Part shown: positions 28,877-37,047 of the stretch, piece after piece
Layout: each line of letters starts with the position of its first letter
Position numbering within the stretch: the first letter of the stretch is position 1
Source of the DNA: Xanthomonas sp. NCPPB 1128
Lineage (GTDB): Bacteria; Pseudomonadota; Gammaproteobacteria; Xanthomonadales; Xanthomonadaceae
Length of the DNA stretch: 57,944 bases
Direction: 5' to 3'
Assembly (NCBI RefSeq): GCF_001043115.1
Contig: NZ_LFME01000033.1
Span: 1-57,944, forward strand
The notes under the pieces: generated by a model
Database searches by the model: none
Told to the model about the DNA's origin: nothing
Seen by the model: only the letters and a program-made list of their open reading frames with translations
Position numbers and translations under genes: made by a program

Positions 28877-30310
28877 CTACGGCGCGCGCTGCAGCAGGCT
28901 GTTGCGGCGGCCGTACAGCAGGTAGGCGACCACACCCAGCGCGTTCCACAGCCCGAACCAGATCTGCGTGGTATGCGGCAGGCTCCAGAACAGGTACAGG
29001 CAGCCGCCGATCGCCAGCGGCCCGACCAGCCACGCCAGCGGCGTGCGGAAGGTGCGGACGCGGCCGGGTTCGCGGCGGCGCAGGACCAGCATGCAGGCGG
29101 CCACGGCGATGAAGGCGGCCAGGGTGCCGGCATTGGCCAGCGCGGCGATCTCGTCCAGCCGCGCCACGCCGGCCAGCGCCGCCACCAGCACCGCGGTGAA
29201 CAGGGTGGTGGCCACCGGCGTGCCGGTGCGCGCGTTGACCTTGGACAGCCCGCGCGGCAGCAGCCCGTCGCGCGACATCACGAAGAAGATCCGGCTCTGT
29301 CCGTACAGGAACGCCAGCAGCACGGTCGGCAGCGCGATCACCGCGACCACGCCGATCGCCGCCGCCGCCTTGCCGTGGCCGAGCTCGCGCAGGATCAGCG
29401 CCAGCGGCTCGGCGCTGGCGCCGAACACGTCGTAGCGCATCGCGCCGACCGCGGCCAGCGCGACCAGGATGTAGATCAGGGTGCAGCCGATCATCGAACC
29501 GACGATGCCGATCGCCAGGTCGCGCTTCGGGTTCTTGGTTTCCTCGGCAGCGGTGGAGATCGCATCGAAACCGTAGAAGGCGAAGAAGATGATCGCCGCC
29601 GCGGCCATCACCCCGTGCGCGACGCCATCGGCGCCGACCGTCTTGGGGAAGCCGTAGGGCATGAACGGGTGCAGGTTGGCGCTCTGGAACGCCGGCAGCG
29701 CCACCGCCACGAAGATGCCCAGGGCGATCAGCTTCAGCACCACCAGCACCGCGTTGAGCGTGGCGCTTTCCTTGGTGCCGGCCATCAGCAGGCCGGCCAC
29801 GGCGAAGGTGATCAGCACCGCCGGCAGGTTGACGATGCCGCCTGCGTGCGGCCCGGCGGTCAGCGCCGCCGGCAGGTTCAGGTCCATGCCGCTCTGCGCG
29901 CTGGCCCAGTGCAGGAAGCCGACGAAGTAGCCGGACCAGCCCACCGCCACCGTGCTGACCACCAGCGAGTACTCCAGGATCAGGCTCCAGCCCACCACCC
30001 AGGCGATCGCTTCGCCGAGCGCGACGTAGCTGTAGGTGTAGGCGCTGCCAGCGGCCGGCATCATCGTCGCCATCTCCGCGTAGGCCAGCGCGGCGCAGGC
30101 GCAGATCGCCCCGGCCACCGCGAACGACACCAGCACCGCCGGCCCGGCCAGTTGCGCGCCGACCCCGATCAGGGTGTAGATGCCGGTGCCGACGATCGCG
30201 CCGATGCCCAGCGCCACCAGATGCGGCCAGCTCAGCGAGGGCACCAGCCGGCGGCCGGCCTCGTGGACGGTGACCAGGTCGAGCGACTTGCGCCGGAACA
30301 GGAACGACAT
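28877..30310 (-). CDS. APC-superfamily amino acid permease (cationic amino acid transporter type)
   Basis: A 477-residue transporter with 12-13 hydrophobic segments. The APC signature GIGAIVGTGIYTLIG in TM1 and GWSLILEYSLVVSTVAVGWSGYF in TM3 are clear, with FYGFDAISTAAEETKNPKRDLAIGI in TM6 as in YhdG/CAT-like permeases. It imports an amino acid or polyamine across the inner membrane; the substrate cannot be read from sequence. RHGG-like spacer regions are normal. An REP pair lies upstream, between it and the response regulator gene. Confidence 0.92.
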   Translation of the reverse strand: MSFLFRRKSLDLVTVHEAGRRLVPSLSWPHLVALGIGAIVGTGIYTLIGVGAQLAGPAVLVSFAVAGAICACAALAYAEMATMMPAAGSAYTYSYVALGEAIAWVVGWSLILEYSLVVSTVAVGWSGYFVGFLHWASAQSGMDLNLPAALTAGPHAGGIVNLPAVLITFAVAGLLMAGTKESATLNAVLVVLKLIALGIFVAVALPAFQSANLHPFMPYGFPKTVGADGVAHGVMAAAAIIFFAFYGFDAISTAAEETKNPKRDLAIGIVGSMIGCTLIYILVALAAVGAMRYDVFGASAEPLALILRELGHGKAAAAIGVVAVIALPTVLLAFLYGQSRIFFVMSRDGLLPRGLSKVNARTGTPVATTLFTAVLVAALAGVARLDEIAALANAGTLAAFIAVAACMLVLRRREPGRVRTFRTPLAWLVGPLAIGGCLYLFWSLPHTTQIWFGLWNALGVVAYLLYGRRNSLLQRAP

Positions 30311-30451
30311 GCGGGCCTCGGGTGCGGGAGTGACAAGCCCGGCAGTGTCGCCGAACGCAGTGCAGCAAAGCTATGCCTGCGGCGTGGCACGGCGCTTGTG
30401 CGGGTCGATGCGAAGTACGCGTTCGGCTTTCTCACGCTGCGATTGCGCTGT

Positions 30452-30519
30452 CGTAGGAGCGGCTTCAACCGCGACGGGCTTTCCCGATGACGCCCGTCGC
30501 GGCTGCAGCCGCTCCTACG
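30452..30519. repeat. REP-like inverted pair
   Basis: CGTAGGAGCGGCTTCAACCG and CCGTCGCGGCTGCAGCCGCT in inverted orientation in the 270-bp gap upstream of the permease gene and downstream of the response regulator gene. It has the same family and layout as 22086-22152. Confidence 0.92.
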
Positions 30520-30580
30520 GAATACCGTTGCGTCAGGACGTGTTCCGCCGCCCGCGGCAAGCGTGGGTTCTCGCAACCGA

Positions 30581-31201
30581 CTACCGCCCCAGCCGCTCCG
30601 CCAGCCGCACCAGTTCGGCCAGCGAGCCGACCTCCAGCTTGCGCATCGCATTGCCGCGGCGCACCTTCACCGTGATCTCGCTGAGCTGCAGCCGCGCCGC
30701 CACCTGCTTGTTCAACAGGCCCTGCACCACCAGTTCCACCACCTCGCGTTCGCCGGCGCTCAGCCGCGCCCAGCGCGCCTGCAGTTCGGCCTGCGCCGCA
30801 TCGGCAGCGCGGCGGGCGCGGTCGCGGGCGGTGCCCTGGCCGATCGCATCGAGCAGGTCCTGATCGCGGAACGGCTTGGTCAGGAACTCGATCGCGCCGT
30901 TCTTCATGGCCTCCACGCTCATCGGAATATCGCCGTGGCCGGTGATGAAGATGGTCGGCAGCGCCAGTCCGGCCTCGTGCATGTTGCGGTGGAAGTCCAT
31001 GCCGCTCTGCCCGGGCATGCGGATGTCCAGCACCAGGCAGCTCGGCGCGTCGGCGCGCGGATGCGCCAGGAACTCGCGGGTCGAGGCGAAGGCGTGCACC
31101 TGCAGGTCCACCGAGGCGAACAGGTCCTCCAGCGCGGCGCGGATCGAGGCGTCGTCGTCGATCAGGTACACCACCGGGCGTGCGGTCGCGTCGGCGTTCA
31201 T
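30581..31201 (-). CDS. FixJ/NarL-type response regulator
   Basis: A 206-residue regulator. The receiver domain (residues 8-125) has the acidic pocket LIDDD, phospho-acceptor Asp in LVLDIRMPGQSG, Thr in FITGHGD and Lys in FLTKPF. A LuxR-type HTH follows (LSAGEREVVELVVQGLLNKQVAARLQLSEITVKV). The ATG overlaps the stop of the histidine kinase gene by 4 bp, so they are a cognate pair. Target genes are unknown; the upstream minus-strand mgtC is 45 bp before the kinase gene and may be in the same transcript. Confidence 0.94.
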   Translation of the reverse strand: MNADATARPVVYLIDDDASIRAALEDLFASVDLQVHAFASTREFLAHPRADAPSCLVLDIRMPGQSGMDFHRNMHEAGLALPTIFITGHGDIPMSVEAMKNGAIEFLTKPFRDQDLLDAIGQGTARDRARRAADAAQAELQARWARLSAGEREVVELVVQGLLNKQVAARLQLSEITVKVRRGNAMRKLEVGSLAELVRLAERLGR

Positions 31202-32268
31202 GGGTGGGCTCCGCTGGCGATGGGCAGGCACACGCAGAACACCGCACCGCGCGGCCGGCCGGGTTCGGCCCAGATGCGCCCGCCGCCGGCCTCGACGATG
31301 CTGCGGCTGATGCTCAGGCCGATGCCGATGCCGCCCTGCTTGGTGGTCCAGAACGCATCGAACAGGTGCGCCTGCGCCTGCGCGGAGAGGCCTTCGCCGC
31401 TGTCGGCCACGCTCAGCCGCACCGAACGCGCGTCCTCGCGCTCGGTGACGATGCGCAGCGTGCGTTGCGCCGGCGCCGTGGCCGCCATCGCCTCGATCGC
31501 GTTGAGCAACAGGTTGCCGATCACCTGCTGGATCTGCACCGGATCGGCCGACACCGGCGGCAGCAGCGCCGACAGCTCGGTGTGCACGCTGACCGCGCTG
31601 CGCTCCAGTTCGCCCTGCGACAGCGCCAGCACCTCGTTCACTGCGGCGTTGAGGTCGAAGGCGCGCTGCTGCGGCGCCTCGCTCCGGGTCAGGCTGCGCA
31701 CCCGTGCGATCACCTCGCCGGCGCGTTCGGCGTCGGCGAGGATGCGCGTCAGCGCCGCGCGCGCCTTGTCCAGGTTCGGCGGCTGCTGGTCGAGCCAGCG
31801 CTGGCAGGCGTTGCCGCTGGTGACGATGGCCGCCAGCGGCTGGTTGACCTCGTGCGCGATCGAGGCGGTCAGGCTGCCCAGGCTGCGCACCCGCGCCAGC
31901 CGCAGCAACTGCGCCTGCGCCGCGTGGGCGGCGGCCTTGGCGCGCTCCATGCGCACCGCGATGGACGCGGTCACCGCCACCACCACGATGCTGATCGCCG
32001 AGTTGATCACGCCGACCCGGTAGGCGCCGGAATGGGTCAAATGGAAACTGAGCACGACCAGCACCACGCAGATCCCGGCAAGCAGGCCCAGCCCGGGCGG
32101 GGCCAGCAAGCGCACTGCGCCGAGGATCGCCACGGTGTAGAACAGCGCCGCCGCCACCGCGTAGTCGGTGACCGTGTCGGCGACGAAGATGGCGCCCAGC
32201 ACCAGGCCCAGCAGGGCCAGGCCGAGCAGACGGCGGTGCGGCGGCAGCGGCTTGAACCAGGCGATCAT
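31198..32268 (-). CDS. Membrane sensor histidine kinase (FixL/DctB-like HisKA class)
   Basis: A 356-residue kinase. Four to five hydrophobic segments fill residues 13-105 with almost no periplasmic loop, so it probably senses a membrane or cytosolic signal. A short coiled linker leads to HisKA (SLTASIAHEVNQPLAAIV, the phosphorylatable His near 141), then the N box NLLLNAIEAM, G1 DSGEGLS and G2 GIGIGLSISRSIVEAGGG. It lacks PAS domains, unlike FixL. It is translationally coupled to the FixJ-type regulator and lies 45 bp downstream of mgtC. Confidence 0.94.
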   Translation of the reverse strand: MIAWFKPLPPHRRLLGLALLGLVLGAIFVADTVTDYAVAAALFYTVAILGAVRLLAPPGLGLLAGICVVLVVLSFHLTHSGAYRVGVINSAISIVVVAVTASIAVRMERAKAAAHAAQAQLLRLARVRSLGSLTASIAHEVNQPLAAIVTSGNACQRWLDQQPPNLDKARAALTRILADAERAGEVIARVRSLTRSEAPQQRAFDLNAAVNEVLALSQGELERSAVSVHTELSALLPPVSADPVQIQQVIGNLLLNAIEAMAATAPAQRTLRIVTEREDARSVRLSVADSGEGLSAQAQAHLFDAFWTTKQGGIGIGLSISRSIVEAGGGRIWAEPGRPRGAVFCVCLPIASGAHP

Positions 32269-32313
32269 CGGCGGCGGAGGATGAGGGAGGACGTAGGGCT
32301 GGACATGGCCGGC

Positions 32314-33042
32314 TCAGCCTTCGACGCCGGCGTTCCAGAACGCCTGTTGTACACCCGGCTCGCTCTCCAGGCGCTGCACCACCGCATCCAGTTCCTCGGC
32401 GCGCACCGCGGTGGCGTACAGGGTGGCGGCGATCTCCACGTCCTTCTGCCCGAACGGATGCTGCTCGACTTCGCGCGCCGGGTAATGCGCCTCCTCCAGC
32501 AGTTCGATCAGCCGCTCGCGCACGTCGCCATGCACCTCGCGCGCGCAGATCGCATAGAACATGTAGGTGGCTTCCAGCGAGGATTCCTTCAGCGGATGCC
32601 GGTTGATGCGGTTCACCATCGGCCGCAGCAGCGTGTTGCTGAGCAGCACGAACATGGCCGCCAGCACCGCCTCGGCGACCAGGCCGGCACCGGCGCAGGC
32701 GCCGACCGCCCCCGACCCCCACAGCGTGGCCGCGGTATTGAGCCCGGTGACGTTGGCGCCTTCCTTCATGATCGCGCCGGCGCCGAGGAAGCCGATGCCG
32801 GAGACCACGTAGGCCACCACCTGCACCGCGCCCTGGGTGCCGCCGTGGATTTCGAACAGGCGATCGCCGAGCGAGACGAAGATCGCCGCGCCGACCGCGA
32901 CCAGGGTGTTGGTGCGCAGCCCGGCGGTGCGCTGGCGCACCTGGCGCTCGAAGCCGATGATCGCGCCGAGCACGAAGGCGGCGGTGAGGCTCACCAGGGT
33001 GTCGAGCAGCGAGCCGAGATTGAACAGGCGCAGGGCTTCCAT
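32314..33042 (-). CDS. mgtC: MgtC/SapB family protein
   Basis: A 242-residue inner-membrane protein. The N-terminal MgtC domain has about five hydrophobic segments and hallmark sequences: ALGAIIGFERQ-like (VLGAIIGFERQVRQRTAGLRTNTLVA), VVSGIGFLGAGAIM and GLNTAATLW. A soluble ACT-like C-terminal domain follows. In pathogens MgtC supports growth at low Mg2+ and inhibits F-ATPase. The ATG lacks a good Shine-Dalgarno and overlaps, as TGATG, the stop of an 11-codon ORF (33042-33077), so translational coupling is possible. Upstream on the same strand are a small basic gene and an MDPDP leader ORF. Confidence 0.93.
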   Translation of the reverse strand: MEALRLFNLGSLLDTLVSLTAAFVLGAIIGFERQVRQRTAGLRTNTLVAVGAAIFVSLGDRLFEIHGGTQGAVQVVAYVVSGIGFLGAGAIMKEGANVTGLNTAATLWGSGAVGACAGAGLVAEAVLAAMFVLLSNTLLRPMVNRINRHPLKESSLEATYMFYAICAREVHGDVRERLIELLEEAHYPAREVEQHPFGQKDVEIAATLYATAVRAEELDAVVQRLESEPGVQQAFWNAGVEG

Positions 33043-33167
33043 CAGGGCGCGTTCCGGTAGGCGAGGGGAGCGATCATGGCGGCTTCGGGAAAGAAAATGA
33101 GCGGATGCGGGGTGCGCATGATGCCGGGGCAAGATGGCAGCCCGCATCGCGGCGGCAGGCGCGCGGC

Positions 33168-33494
33168 TCAGCGCACCCCGGGCCACCACGCCAGCGCGGC
33201 GTGCAACCAGTGCGCAGCCGGGGCGCTCGCCCCGGCCTCGTGCAGGCGCCGCTGCGCCGCATGCGGCAGGCGCGCACGGACCCGGATGCGGTCGGCGACC
33301 GGCAGCTGCGACAGCGCATCGGCCATCACCCGCGGCGACTGTGCGGACAGCGCCAGGGCGAAGGCACGCGGGCCGTGGGCGACGAGCAGATGCCGCAGCG
33401 CCTCGGTGCGGCGCATGGCGACCGCGGCGCGCAGCGCGCGCTGCAGGCCGCGCTGCAGACGGAAACGGCGGGAAAACAGCGAGAACGCGAACAT
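33168..33494 (-). CDS. Small highly basic protein of unknown function upstream of mgtC
   Basis: A 108-residue protein rich in Arg and Ala (FSRRFRLQRGLQRALRAAV near the start) with about ten His or Trp in the C-terminal third and no signal peptide or long hydrophobic helix. AAGGAGGT, the full anti-Shine-Dalgarno match and the strongest in the window, sits 4 nt before the ATG at 33494. An upstream in-frame start (33524) would hide it. The stop is 125 bp before mgtC on the same strand, and a 26-codon leader ORF lies 67 bp upstream. I do not recognise a family; an accessory to MgtC is a guess from position. Confidence 0.6.
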   Translation of the reverse strand: MFAFSLFSRRFRLQRGLQRALRAAVAMRRTEALRHLLVAHGPRAFALALSAQSPRVMADALSQLPVADRIRVRARLPHAAQRRLHEAGASAPAAHWLHAALAWWPGVR

Positions 33495-33561
33495 GACGAC
33501 CTCCTTGCGGCGCGTGGCCGGCAAGGACGTCGCGGCCTGCGGGCGGCGGGCGTCTTCCGGC

Positions 33562-33642
33562 TCAGCGCCAGGCAGCGACCAGGCGGGGGGATTGGCAGGG
33601 GAATGCGGCGCTGACGCCGCGTCGATGCGGATCGGGGTCCAT
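33562..33642 (-). CDS. Candidate regulatory leader peptide, MgtL-like (26 codons)
   Basis: A short ORF with an excellent Shine-Dalgarno (GGAGG, 5 nt before the ATG) encodes MDPDPHRRGVSAAF followed by 12 more residues ending in TGA at 33562. The first five residues alternate Asp and Pro; enterobacterial MgtL starts MDPEP, a sequence known to destabilise translating ribosomes at low Mg2+ and so control mgtA transcription. The ORF itself contains a GC stem (GCGGCG-n4-CGCCGC, 33605-33620). Downstream on the same strand are a small gene and mgtC. Function as a Mg2+ sensor is inference; the peptide is probably not a stable product. Confidence 0.55.
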   Translation of the reverse strand: MDPDPHRRGVSAAFPCQSPRLVAAWR

Positions 33643-33866
33643 GCTCGCCTCCGGTGTCAGGGGAACGGATCGCGCGATGCGCGACGGCCGGGCGCGGCCT
33701 GATGCCGCGGCGCCGCCCACTGGGCAAGCCAGGAGCGGATGCCGCAAAGCTTGGCATGGGGCACATAGGCACACCAGCCTGCATGAGGCCATGGCGGCGA
33801 TACCAAGGTATATCCCGGCCCCGTCCGCCTACCGGCGCTTGGCGCAGCGACTGAGACGCGGCCGGC

Positions 33867-33872
33867 TACACT
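33867..33872 (+). promoter_or_regulatory. -10 element suggesting a leaderless rmuC transcript
   Basis: TACACT lies 6 nt before the rmuC ATG inside GCCGGCTACACTGGCCGC. A TTGGCG at 33839-33844 is 22 bp upstream, longer than an ideal spacer, so the promoter is only provisional. No Shine-Dalgarno precedes the ATG. Confidence 0.42.
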
Positions 33873-33878
33873 GGCCGC

Positions 33879-35468
33879 ATGCAAAACGATGCCCATTTCC
33901 TGATCCTCGCCGGCCTGTTGTGCGCCGTCATCGTCCTGTTGCTGGCCGTGCTGCTGCGGCGAGGCAACCATGCCGCCCTGGAGTCGGCCCTGCGCGAAGA
34001 GCAGCGCAGCGGCCGCGGCGAACTGCGCGAGCAGCTCGACAGCCTGGCGCGCCAGCAGGATGCGCGCAGCGAAGGTTTCGCCCGCAACCTGGCGGATCTT
34101 TCCACCCGTACCGACCAGCGCCTGGACCTGCTGCGCGAGGCGCTGACCGAGGACGCGCGGCGCGGCCGGGTCGAGGCCGGCGCCGCGCAGCAGCGGATGG
34201 CCGAGTTGCTGAGCCAGCGCCTGGTCGAGATCCGCGGCCAGCTCGACGCCTTCGGCCAGCAGCAGGATGCGCGCATGGCCCAGTTCGGCCAGCAGCAGGC
34301 CGAGCTGATCGCGCGCATCGACACGCAACTGGGCGCGCTGCGCGAGGCCCTGCTCGAGGACACGCGCAAGGGCCGCCAGGAAGGTGCGGACGCGCAGCAG
34401 CGCTTCGCCGACACGCTCGGCCTGCGTCTGAGCGAACTGATCCAGCGCAACGAGCAGCGCCTGGGCGAGATGCGCGGCACCCTGGAAGAGCGGCTGAAGG
34501 AATTGCAGGCCGACAACGCGGCCAAGCTCGAGCAGATGCGCGGCACCGTCGACGAGAAGCTGCAGACCACCCTCAACACGCGCCTGGACGCCTCGTTCAA
34601 GCTGGTCTCCGAACGGCTCGAGCAGGTCCAGCGCGGCCTGGGCGAGATGCAGCAGTTGGCCACCGGCGTCGGCGACCTCAAGCGCGTGCTGAGCAACGTC
34701 AAGAACCGCGGCGGCTGGGGCGAGGTGCAGCTGGAGAACATCCTCGAGCAGACCCTGACCCAGGAGCAGTACGCGCGCGGCGTGCGGGTGCGCCCGGAAC
34801 GCAACGAGATGGTCGACTTCGCGGTGCGCCTGCCCGGCCGCGGCCACGAGGACACGCCGGTGTGGCTGCCGATCGACGCCAAGTTCCCGCGCGAGGACTA
34901 CGAGCGCCTGCTCGACGCGCAGGAGCAGGGCGATCCGGAGCTGGTGCAGGCGACGGGTGCACAACTGGAGCGTGCGATCCGGGTACAGGCCAAGTCGATC
35001 TGCGACAAGTACATCGCCCCGCCGCACACCACCGATTTCGCGGTGATGTTCCTGCCCACCGAAGGCCTGTATGCCGAGACCCTGCGCCGCCCGGGCCTGG
35101 CCGACCTGCTGCAGCGCGAACACCGCATCGTCGTCGCCGGCCCGACCACGATCACCGCCCTGCTCAACAGCCTGCAGATGGGCTTCCGCACCCTGGCCAT
35201 CGAGAAGCGCTCCAGCGAGGTGTGGGGCGTGCTGGCCGCGGTCAAGAGCGAGTTCGGCAAGTTCGCCGGCATCCTGGAAAAGGCCGAGAAGCAGATCAGC
35301 ACCGTCGGCAAGAGCCTGGGCGAGGCCAGCCGCAAGACCCGCACCATCGAACGCCGCCTGCGCGGCGTCGAGACCCTGGCCGACGCGCAGGCCGCGCCGT
35401 TGCTGGAACTGTCGCTGCCGCTGGATGATGCGGAGGCGGAAGAGGCGGCAGACGACGACCGGGAGTGA
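33879..35468 (+). CDS. rmuC: DNA recombination protein RmuC
   Basis: A 529-residue protein: a single N-terminal transmembrane helix (residues 8-26, ILAGLLCAVIVLLLAVLL), about 220 residues of coiled coil (repeated EQLDSLARQQDAR, LREALTEDARR, MRGTLEERLKELQ patterns), then the RmuC nuclease-like domain from about 270 (NRGGWGEVQLENIL, LPIDAKFPREDYERLL, FLPTEGLYAE, VVAGPTTITALLNSLQMGF). It limits DNA inversions at short repeats in E. coli, which is notable in a window so rich in palindromic repeats. The chosen ATG keeps the membrane anchor and follows a putative -10 by 6 nt. Confidence 0.95.
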   Translation: MQNDAHFLILAGLLCAVIVLLLAVLLRRGNHAALESALREEQRSGRGELREQLDSLARQQDARSEGFARNLADLSTRTDQRLDLLREALTEDARRGRVEAGAAQQRMAELLSQRLVEIRGQLDAFGQQQDARMAQFGQQQAELIARIDTQLGALREALLEDTRKGRQEGADAQQRFADTLGLRLSELIQRNEQRLGEMRGTLEERLKELQADNAAKLEQMRGTVDEKLQTTLNTRLDASFKLVSERLEQVQRGLGEMQQLATGVGDLKRVLSNVKNRGGWGEVQLENILEQTLTQEQYARGVRVRPERNEMVDFAVRLPGRGHEDTPVWLPIDAKFPREDYERLLDAQEQGDPELVQATGAQLERAIRVQAKSICDKYIAPPHTTDFAVMFLPTEGLYAETLRRPGLADLLQREHRIVVAGPTTITALLNSLQMGFRTLAIEKRSSEVWGVLAAVKSEFGKFAGILEKAEKQISTVGKSLGEASRKTRTIERRLRGVETLADAQAAPLLELSLPLDDAEAEEAADDDRE

Positions 35469-35840
35469 GGGCTTGCGGTGCCCGCGGCGGCGGTGCGGCG
35501 AGTTGGGATGGCAGGGCGCCGTGGCGGTTACGTCGACGAGAGATGGCATGCGATCAGCACGCGCCATGTTGGATGCAGCGCCGCGACCTAGACGGGCCAG
35601 CGCGGCCGCTTCTTACGCGCGCGCTGTGCAGATGGCGCAGCATGCGGGTGTCCTTGTCTTGCCTGCAGTGTTGATGCGATTCGACATCGCGGATGCGTTG
35701 TCGTCTCCAGGCCGCTCGCCTGCTCGCCTGCTCGCCCGCTGGCCGATACGCGCGCTTCTGATCACGACGAGAGACACATGTGTAGCGGCGGCTCTTGTTC
35801 CTTCTGCGGCAGTCGCGAGCAGGTTTTGCGGACGCGGCTG

Positions 35841-35863
35841 TCGCGGCTGAAGCCGCTCCTACG
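35841..35863. repeat. Single REP-like element in the 35469-36006 gap
   Basis: TCGCGGCTGAAGCCGCTCCT followed by ACG, an unpaired copy. The rest of this 538-bp gap shows no gene I can support. A Cys-rich open frame starting at 35778 translates straight through the REP and is treated as spurious. A TATGCT at about 35972 may be the -10 for the glutathione peroxidase gene. Confidence 0.88.
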
Positions 35864-36006
35864 GGATCACATGATCCGCAGCAAAAGCGGGTGTTACGTA
35901 CCTACACAGGCTAGCTGTCGGTGCGCTGAGTTACGCGGTCACGGCACTGCGCATGCTGCGCCGGCAGCGACTATGCTGGCGCTCCTTTCGATCGAGGTAG
36001 TGCCCC

Positions 36007-36549
36007 ATGTCCGAGTCGCTGACCGCCATCCCGCTGACCCGCATCGACGGCCAGCCGACCACCCTCGCCGCGTTCGACGGTAAGGTGCTGCTGATCGTCA
36101 ACGTCGCTTCCAAGTGCGGTCTCACCGCGCAGTACGCCGGCCTGGAAGCGCTGTACCGCGAGAAGCAGGCGGCCGGGCTGGAAGTGCTCGGTTTCCCGGC
36201 CAACGACTTCAAAGGCCAGGAGCCGGGCAGCGAGGCGGAGATCCAGCAGTTCTGCCAGCTCACCTACGACGTGACGTTCCCGATGTTCGCCAAGATCGCG
36301 GTCACCGGCGAGGATACGCATCCGCTGTACCGCGCACTGATCGCCGCGCAGCCGCAGACCGAGGGCGAGGGCCCGATGCGCGAGAAGCTGGCCGGCTACG
36401 GCATCGAGCCGAATCCGGCGCCGGGCGTGTTGTGGAACTTCGAGAAGTTCCTGGTCGGCCGCCACGGCCAGGTGCTGGGCCGCTTCGCCCCGGACGTCAC
36501 CGCCGAGGATCCGCGCCTGCGCGCGGCGATCGACGCGGCGTTGGGGTAA
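36007..36549 (+). CDS. Glutathione peroxidase family thiol peroxidase
   Basis: A 180-residue thioredoxin-fold peroxidase reducing hydroperoxides, in bacteria usually with thioredoxin as donor. The peroxidatic Cys is in NVASKCGLTAQY (residue about 38), the conserved Trp-Asn in LWNFEKFLVGRHG, and a candidate resolving Cys in QFCQLTYDVTFPMFAK. The second signature reads FPANDFKGQEPGS instead of FPCNQF-GQEPG, replacing the tetrad Gln by Asp and the Cys by Ala, a variant found in some bacterial members. No export signal. GAGGTAG precedes the ATG by 6 nt. Confidence 0.94.
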   Translation: MSESLTAIPLTRIDGQPTTLAAFDGKVLLIVNVASKCGLTAQYAGLEALYREKQAAGLEVLGFPANDFKGQEPGSEAEIQQFCQLTYDVTFPMFAKIAVTGEDTHPLYRALIAAQPQTEGEGPMREKLAGYGIEPNPAPGVLWNFEKFLVGRHGQVLGRFAPDVTAEDPRLRAAIDAALG

Positions 36550-36672
36550 TGGCGCGCTGTGCTCGCGGCCATCTGGCGGTGCTTGGACGAGTTGAAGCTG
36601 CTGTTGTGCCTTCTAGATAGCTGGTGACCGAGCGGGAGAGGTCATCGATGTCCTTGTTGTCTGGCGTCGCTT

Positions 36673-36696
36673 GTCGCGGCTGAAGCCGCTCCTACG
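36673..36696. repeat. Single REP-like element
   Basis: GTCGCGGCTGAAGCCGCTCC followed by TACG, near the start of the 1057-bp non-coding stretch from 36550 to 37606, which otherwise holds the inverted element, an REP pair, a CAACAG tract and the mlaA terminator. Confidence 0.88.
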
Positions 36697-36727
36697 TAAG
36701 GCGTGCAGCCTCGAAGCCGATGTCGCT

Positions 36728-37047
36728 GCCGTTGCCGCTGCCTTGGCTGTTGCTTTGGCTGTTGCTTGGCTTTGGCTTTGGCTGTTGCCCTGGCTTTTGA
36801 TTTACCGGGTTCCCTTCCGAAGCGGCGGCCAGCACGGGGAAAAACCCGAAGGGCGGCGTACATGGATGTACGCCGTCCGCGGCAGGGGCAGGATGCCCCT
36901 TCCGCGGATCCCCGTGATGGACGCGAACCCGGAGCGCGCAGCGCGGAGGGCGCGAAGGCAGGGCGTGCTTTCTTTTGGTTCCTTTTCTTTGCACGAGCAA
37001 AGAAAAGGAACTAGCCCGCAAGGGCGAAAGCTGTTGCTGTTGCTTGA
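36728..37047 (+). repeat. Non-coding composite repeat element, copy 1
   Basis: About 320 bp with, in order: a GTTGCT/GGCTTTG-rich tract, TTTACCGGGTTCCC, GCGAACCCGGAGCGCGCAGC followed by GCGGAGGGCG, the long hairpin GTTCCTTTTCTTTGC-ACGA-GCAAAGAAAAGGAAC, and AAGGGCGAAAGCTGTTGCTG. The same blocks occur in the same order, inverted, in 37178-37436. No protein-coding signal is convincing. This looks like a mobile or amplified non-autonomous element. Confidence 0.75.

Follow-up and report, generated by a model that had tools for sequence, protein, structure and literature searches.

The question raised by this locus is whether a short leader peptide outside the enterobacteria could gauge Mg2+ for the genes behind it. 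The locus lies on the minus strand of a 57,944-nucleotide contig of Xanthomonas sp. NCPPB 1128 (NZ_LFME01000033.1; this whole stretch is called the window below), where a preliminary description had noticed a 26-codon open reading frame (ORF) that starts MDPDP, has a Shine-Dalgarno (SD) sequence, and is followed on the same strand by a small gene and then by mgtC. All of these elements were confirmed. The description had also compared the ORF with MgtL, the leader of mgtA in E. coli, which it took to start MDPEP; this has to be corrected, as passages of PMC11282234 give Glu2, Asp4 and the motif EPDP. According to the same passages, ribosomes drop off there at low Mg2+; a Rho terminator is thereby closed, and mgtA is expressed (also in parts of PMC11552253). 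The elements of the window that are needed first are the following.

33648 to 33652, minus strand: SD of the leader, GGAGG; its GGAG ends 6 nt 5' of the ATG
33562 to 33642, minus strand: leader ORF MDPDPHRRGVSAAFPCQSPRLVAAWR, 26 codons, with the ATG at 33642 and the TGA ending at 33562
33628 to 33642, minus strand: MDPDP codons, the proposed ribosome-destabilising motif by analogy with MgtL
33168 to 33494, minus strand: small gene, ATG at 33494, for a protein of 108 amino acids whose predicted fold is all-helical and like the N domain of MgtE
32314 to 33042, minus strand: mgtC (Pfam PF02308, 3.5e-34, 118.2 bits against a cut-off of 31.4; MgtC_SapB_C, 5.6e-13)

The frame of the leader is open upstream of the ATG as far as −189. 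Four in-frame start codons occur in this extension, none of them with an SD in a scripted test, and in L009, a close relative, the frame is closed by a stop at −18 relative to the leader ATG.

A DNA search of 20 genomes of the same genus (own genome included), with a query that contained the leader, gave 14 loci covering it, 13 with MDPDP and one (L010) with MNPDP. A profile of the small-gene protein, A1, was then built from 13 of these 14 loci. Because A1 was built from matches to leader-containing DNA, only the 10 out-of-genus or newly named genomes count as independent evidence. A1 matched 18 of 247 genomes of the family, including eight from the further genera g16 and g29, and additionally reached Xanthomonas maliensis and Stenotrophomonas mori; as S. 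mori may belong to g16 or g29, the leader is assigned to at least three genera. Each of the 20 genomes reached by way of the small protein has the leader upstream, with MDPDP in 19 and MNPDP in one (G007), and with a length of 26 to 36 amino acids. This result bears out the earlier opinion that an MDPDP leader upstream of a Mg2+ gene is not accidental here.

Codon usage was compared in 27 loci of the small-protein type (14 same-genus loci, X. maliensis, S. mori, two from g16 and nine from g29; L092-L094 derive from the pattern scan described below). It can be seen that synonymous variants occur at all four Asp/Pro codons, with GAC 23, GAT 3 and AAC 1 at codon 2, CCC 25 and CCT 2 at codon 3, GAC 20 and GAT 7 at codon 4, and CCG 16 and CCT 11 at codon 5. 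Only one amino-acid change accompanies them: residues 3-5 are invariant (27/27), and residue 2 is Asp in 26 loci and Asn in L010. Among residues 6-12 only residue 8 is nearly constant (Arg in 26/27), and the remainder of the leader drifts, changes length and ends in different frames at different loci; one-base indels alter its end in L093 and L094 of g29. In view of the silent variation at the Asp/Pro codons and the drifting tail, the pattern reads as selection on the N-terminus of the leader peptide, rather than on a nucleotide motif or a folded microprotein. The leader GGAG is separated from the ATG by 6-7 nt in 30/30 loci (the 27 loci and three of the mgtE type, see below), six of which were first picked up with a pattern containing GGAG. 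Thus the combination that the preliminary description had looked for in relatives, namely conserved Asp-Pro codons and SD against a changing remainder, was indeed observed. L010, which belongs to G007, is a natural Asp2-to-Asn variant, and together with its MDPDP-bearing close relative L011 it provides a ready comparison pair.

Does the leader follow magnesium genes? Among the same-genus genomes, 20 in all, this mgtC (E ≤1e-139) and the leader occur in the same 14. DNA similarity shows no leader in the remaining six; an MgtC homologue was found in only one of them, G019, and it is distant (6e-12). The pattern scan, which covered three of the six (G015, G016, G019), found no site at such an operon there. 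In a sample of 149 family genomes, 10 of the 10 with mgtC at E ≤6e-94 carry the leader. No leader-like ORF was seen within 1.5 kb upstream of nine more distant mgtC copies, a short-sighted look that also missed L179 and L180, whose known leader sits further off behind mgtA; by the genome-wide pattern, six genomes holding only such distant copies have no site and the other three have only the small-gene site. Some leader-bearing genomes possess second mgtC copies, 54-55% identical to that of the window (L156, L157, L190-L192), and no such leader was found before them. As for mgtA, it exceeds the TIGR01524 cut-off in 7 of the 149 genomes, and five of these, in g16 and g29, have the leader. The small gene sits between leader and mgtA in both genera, as in G139 of g29, which has leader, small gene, mgtA, mgtC, kinase and regulator in this order.

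A different arrangement was observed in L067 of G027, in which the leader is followed by a signal-peptide-like protein of no known family, mgtE (TIGR00400 1.3e-35 for the first 200 amino acids, Pfam MgtE_N 2.3e-23) and an mgtC-like ORF. The latter (L135, 3131-3448) joins the beginning and the end of MgtC, with the middle missing. Among eight genomes of the genus to which G027 belongs, both this mgtE and the pattern are confined to G027. In L086 (G257) a leader starting MDPEP precedes a relative of the signal-peptide-like protein and an ORF with MgtE_N at 2.1e-7, and in L085 (G295) the leader and the same protein are followed by the contig end. Relatives of this protein occur in 34 of 299 genomes of the order, and the leader is present in 2 of 30 such loci scanned. 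Taken together, the leader tracks the Mg2+ genes mgtC, mgtA and, in one genome, mgtE. The signal-peptide-like protein, which looks secreted and has the motif ARPLITDDA, lies directly 5' of mgtE, an MgtE_N ORF or mgtA (L067, 1671-2396; L086, 1642-2376; L119; L106); in the two such proteins scanned no Pfam family exceeded its cut-off.

A simple possibility is that short GC-rich ORFs starting MDPDP are common and that one of them happens to lie here. Genomes were scanned for GGAG-N4-10-ATGGANCCNGANCC, that is, an SD followed by ATG-GAN-CC-N-GAN-CC, with the reversed pattern as control; unless a family search is cited, the neighbouring genes were judged by eye from ORF translations. In the 247 family genomes 24 sites were found in 23 genomes, against 11 for the control. 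Seventeen are the leader of the small gene, one is the mgtE locus of G027, and six have no recognised Mg2+ gene. The 299 order genomes gave 10 new sites, comprising three further g29 leaders, L086, L085 and five at which no Mg2+ gene was recognised. The class sample of 369 genomes gave 12 sites (10 of them new), against 10 for the control, and no Mg2+ gene was recognised by eye at the 10 new ones, the genes behind the long-ORF sites L089, L091, L095 and L101 not being listed. Since 12 sites stand against 10 in the control, the pattern is background outside the order, no commoner than its reverse. Over the three samples 23 of 44 distinct sites lie at Mg2+-type operons, L085 included although its contig ends before the further genes. 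The 21 sites elsewhere and the class-level figures would fit an accidental origin. On the other side, 17 of the 24 family sites share one homologous position, and the site is present in 17 and absent from one of the genomes with the small protein, as compared with 6 and 223 of the rest (Fisher 2e-20, which is overstated as the genomes are related). The searches with the small-gene protein and the conservation of the Asp/Pro codons rule out a chance ORF at this locus, and we give this explanation practically no weight. One site of another kind recurs at the same place in two species of the genus (L083 and L084, about position 1509): an SD-led ORF of 30 amino acids, MDPDPGL.... A glycosyltransferase-like gene accompanies it on the other strand, and no Mg2+ gene was recognised.

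How, then, might the leader act? The small gene that follows it starts directly behind a hairpin.

33496 to 33533, minus strand: hairpin that pairs most of the small-gene SD and ends 1 nt before the ATG
33500 to 33506, minus strand: SD of the small gene, AAGGAGG, within the hairpin

At the window locus the hairpin has a z of −2.48 (4 of 200 shuffles), or −3.37 when only the stretch before the SD was shuffled (1 of 300). In 30/30 loci its 3' end lies no more than 2 nt from the AUG and 2 to 5 of the 5 SD positions are paired; the sequences differ between genera and the shape is alike. To measure stability the segment from SD to AUG was kept and the preceding stretch was shuffled 300 times; five near-copies from the same genus were set aside, which left 25 of the 30 loci. 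The mean z was −2.56, and 20 of the 25 ranked within the lowest 5% of their shuffles; L015, L052 and L054 were just outside it, and L021 and L067 were not significant. For the mgtE type, shuffling before the SD gave −3.00 in L119, −2.07 in L086 (start moved to a later ATG) and −0.64 in L067, and shuffling the whole stretch with the first ATG gave −1.16 in L086 and −0.48 in L067. A second hairpin over about codons 6-18 was dropped as inconsistent (z +1.2 to −3.7 in 17 loci). Because the hairpin abuts the small-gene start, the anatomy appears to favour control at the start of translation of that gene. The MgtL-like reading of the preliminary description keeps the conservation pattern and the association with Mg2+ genes on its side, but the immediate target would be the small MgtE_N-like gene and not mgtC.

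We think it likely that the leader is a nascent-chain Mg2+ sensor which acts, by way of the hairpin, on the small gene and then on mgtC or mgtA. At low Mg2+, ribosomes translating Asp-Pro-Asp-Pro just after the start would fall apart, by the intrinsic ribosome destabilisation described for MgtL, while at ample Mg2+ they would proceed to the leader stop. Occupancy of the last codons of the leader would set the state of the hairpin hiding the small-gene SD and hence the expression of the small gene, and translational coupling and polarity would carry the effect to mgtC or mgtA. At low Mg2+ the bare leader tail may pair with the 5' arm of the hairpin, so that the SD is freed. In 21 loci the 60 nt preceding the hairpin were searched for the best partner of the 5' arm. 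This partner ends from 17 nt upstream to 20 nt downstream of the leader stop, where all or part of it would lie under a ribosome completing the leader. A possible route of coupling onto mgtC lies at the next junction.

33042 to 33077, minus strand: 11-codon ORF MIAPLAYRNAP; its stop and the start of mgtC share the overlap TGATG

In 12 of the 14 same-genus loci (two were unmatched by the script) an ORF begins at −35 and has this overlap with mgtC. In five of the 12, the 36-amino-acid group, this ORF is simply the end of the small gene, and in seven it is the 11-codon ORF; as these stops overlap the mgtC start, mgtC could come under the control exerted on the small gene.

Several observations weigh against this interpretation. 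One relative has MNPDP instead of MDPDP, and two of the seven mgtA genomes (G123, G021) lack the leader, none being found upstream of their mgtA. Shuffled sequences often pair the SD too (a mean of 1.4-2.9 of 4 positions), so that it is the stability of the hairpin, not SD pairing as such, that exceeds chance. Static folding gave no consistent SD switch: with the leader bare or covered, the unpaired probability was ≤0.38 in 25 of 27 loci. When the full leader was considered, its helix with the 5' arm did not reach significance (z above −1.4 in 28 of 30 loci, the exceptions being L053 and L054), and 5'-arm complementarity in the 60 nt before the hairpin is mildly negative (z +0.4 to −3.2 in 21 loci). 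The leader stop is 21-29 nt from the hairpin in the group of the window and X. maliensis, rather than about 5. A switch between leader tail and hairpin is only suggestive, and because the arm complementarity is mild, the whole-leader helix not significant and static folding without a switch, expression at low Mg2+ is favoured by a narrow margin, as our best guess of the sign.

A terminating ribosome that opens the hairpin would reverse the sign, and this is the main rival. Here the same sensor would work the other way: the finishing ribosome would melt the hairpin, the small gene would be on at ample Mg2+ and off upon drop-off at low Mg2+, and its MgtE_N-like product would act as a brake that the cell makes once it has enough Mg2+. 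The spacing suits such contact in many loci: leader stop and hairpin base are 5-6 nt apart in S. mori, G027, G295, the two g16 loci and five of the nine from g29, they are 0-4 nt apart in the remaining four of g29, and stop and hairpin overlap in the 36-amino-acid group (L086 has 14 nt); nor is there a significant competing helix over the whole leader. The 21-29 nt of the group of the window, however, are too far for contact, and in enterobacteria, as far as passages of PMC11552253 tell, full translation of the upstream ORF (uORF) represses mgtA and corA. We regard this reversal as possible, with rather low probability. Less probable still, the ORF would serve translational coupling only, or would be a nucleotide element close to the start, in either case with no sensing of Mg2+. 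The hairpin and the close spacing would suit ordinary translational coupling, but the synonymous variation at all four Asp/Pro codons with one amino-acid change in 27 loci, and the recurrence of the leader before different Mg2+ genes, speak against it. A translated microprotein with its own function and an incidental MDPDP start would account for the SD and start kept in 30/30 loci; it is nevertheless very unlikely, as only Arg8 stands out past MDPDP and the tail changes frame and length even between the close relatives L052, L093 and L094.

The rest of the operon is in line with the order usually seen, which is leader, small helical protein, (mgtA), mgtC, histidine kinase and response regulator. 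Its further elements in the window are as follows, with rmuC divergent upstream of the operon (Pfam 4.2e-74).

33799 to 33812, minus strand: palindrome TATACCTTGGTATC, likely operator of the operon promoter
31198 to 32268, minus strand: histidine kinase (Pfam HisKA, HATPase_c)
30581 to 31201, minus strand: response regulator with receiver and LuxR-type (GerE) domains (Pfam)

In the loci examined from the same genus, from g16 and from g29, mgtC is followed by the kinase, and the regulator adjoins it in the loci that were long enough (one same-genus, one g16, one g29). In the X. albilineans group (L177 and L178, from G001 X. albilineans and G013 Xanthomonas sp. GPE 39) a three-gene RND pump set of the CusA/CzcA family lies between the small gene and mgtC on one strand, and the same pump type stands 3' of the small gene in S. 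mori. The palindrome, TATACC-NN-GGTATA, was found with 0-2 mismatches in 27/27 small-type loci, starting 119-280 nt before the leader ATG (best match in 600 nt upstream), and is absent (at least 5 mismatches) from the three mgtE-type loci. It is the sole site in the window, where 0 are expected. It is likely an operator, and therefore the transcript plausibly begins upstream of the leader; the response regulator of the operon itself may bind there. Scans of 33000-34000 found neither a sigma-70 promoter nor an intrinsic terminator. A curated RNA family covering the mgtA leader exists; cmscan of 30000-37000 against 4227 Rfam families gave no match up to E 1.

The small protein has a predicted fold nearest to the cytosolic domains of MgtE (intracellular N domain, PF03448), from which it differs in being stand-alone, with no CBS or membrane part, and in a sequence below the Pfam cut-off. 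The gathering score of PF03448 (25.9) was not reached, the protein of S. mori coming closest with 17.1 bits (E 0.0081); two of the 13 A1 members matched at E 0.065 or worse, and the window protein had no match. Profile comparison with one MgtE gave an hhalign probability of 5.5 with E 0.007, not usable alone, and a sequence search of the PDB returned one unrelated match (E 7.1). No paper on a stand-alone MgtE N domain was found in the open-licence literature.

In the ermC and cat translational attenuators a leader ORF is followed by a hairpin hiding the SD of the next gene. The present arrangement is alike in this, whereas the proposed signal here would be Mg2+-dependent drop-off, as opposed to antibiotic-induced stalling there. 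With MgtL of mgtA in Escherichia and Salmonella, in so far as passages of PMC11282234 and PMC11552253 describe it, it shares a short ORF, an N-terminal alternation of acidic residues and prolines and a position 5' of a Mg2+ gene. In contrast to MgtL, the Xanthomonas leader has 26-36 amino acids with an unrelated tail, is not directly 5' of mgtA but has the small MgtE_N-like gene as its first target, and is joined to a start-abutting hairpin instead of a Rho-dependent terminator; moreover, leaders of the Xanthomonas type head mgtC, mgtA or mgtE operons, and the small-type operons end in a two-component system. We therefore liken the leader to MgtL in its presumed working, with another output, and do not class it as a member of MgtL. 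The uORF corL precedes the Mg2+ transporter gene corA in Salmonella and E. coli, and its efficient translation represses corA, but it has fewer acidic and proline residues (passages of PMC11552253). In CruR of Bordetella, as passages of PMC9426467 present it, a nascent chain also senses a metal, copper, and controls the metal-uptake genes that follow; it differs as a DUF2946 protein of about 145 amino acids with CXXC, RAPP stalling, Rho dependence and an intergenic distance of 162 bp. The preliminary description knew of nothing comparable in Xanthomonadaceae, and among the open-licence papers listed, by titles, abstract openings and some passages, we likewise found no report of such a leader in this group. 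The start-abutting hairpin and the upstream palindrome are new in this analysis.

On a wider scale, we consider the balance even as to whether these leaders form a non-enterobacterial family of sensors that gauge Mg2+ through the nascent chain, with MDPDP or MDPEP leaders on mgtC, mgtA, mgtE and MgtE_N-like genes across the Xanthomonas order, read through a start-closing hairpin and not a transcription terminator, and independent of, or much older than, MgtL. If this is true, destabilisation of the ribosome by an acidic and proline-rich nascent chain would be a recurrent, perhaps ancient, bacterial measure of usable Mg2+ and not an enterobacterial oddity. The 30 leaders with free tails, one of them the Asp2-to-Asn variant, would make a natural comparative set in which motif, hairpin and output are separable, and an uncharacterised small protein and a two-component system would gain a regulation and a likely role in Mg2+ biology.
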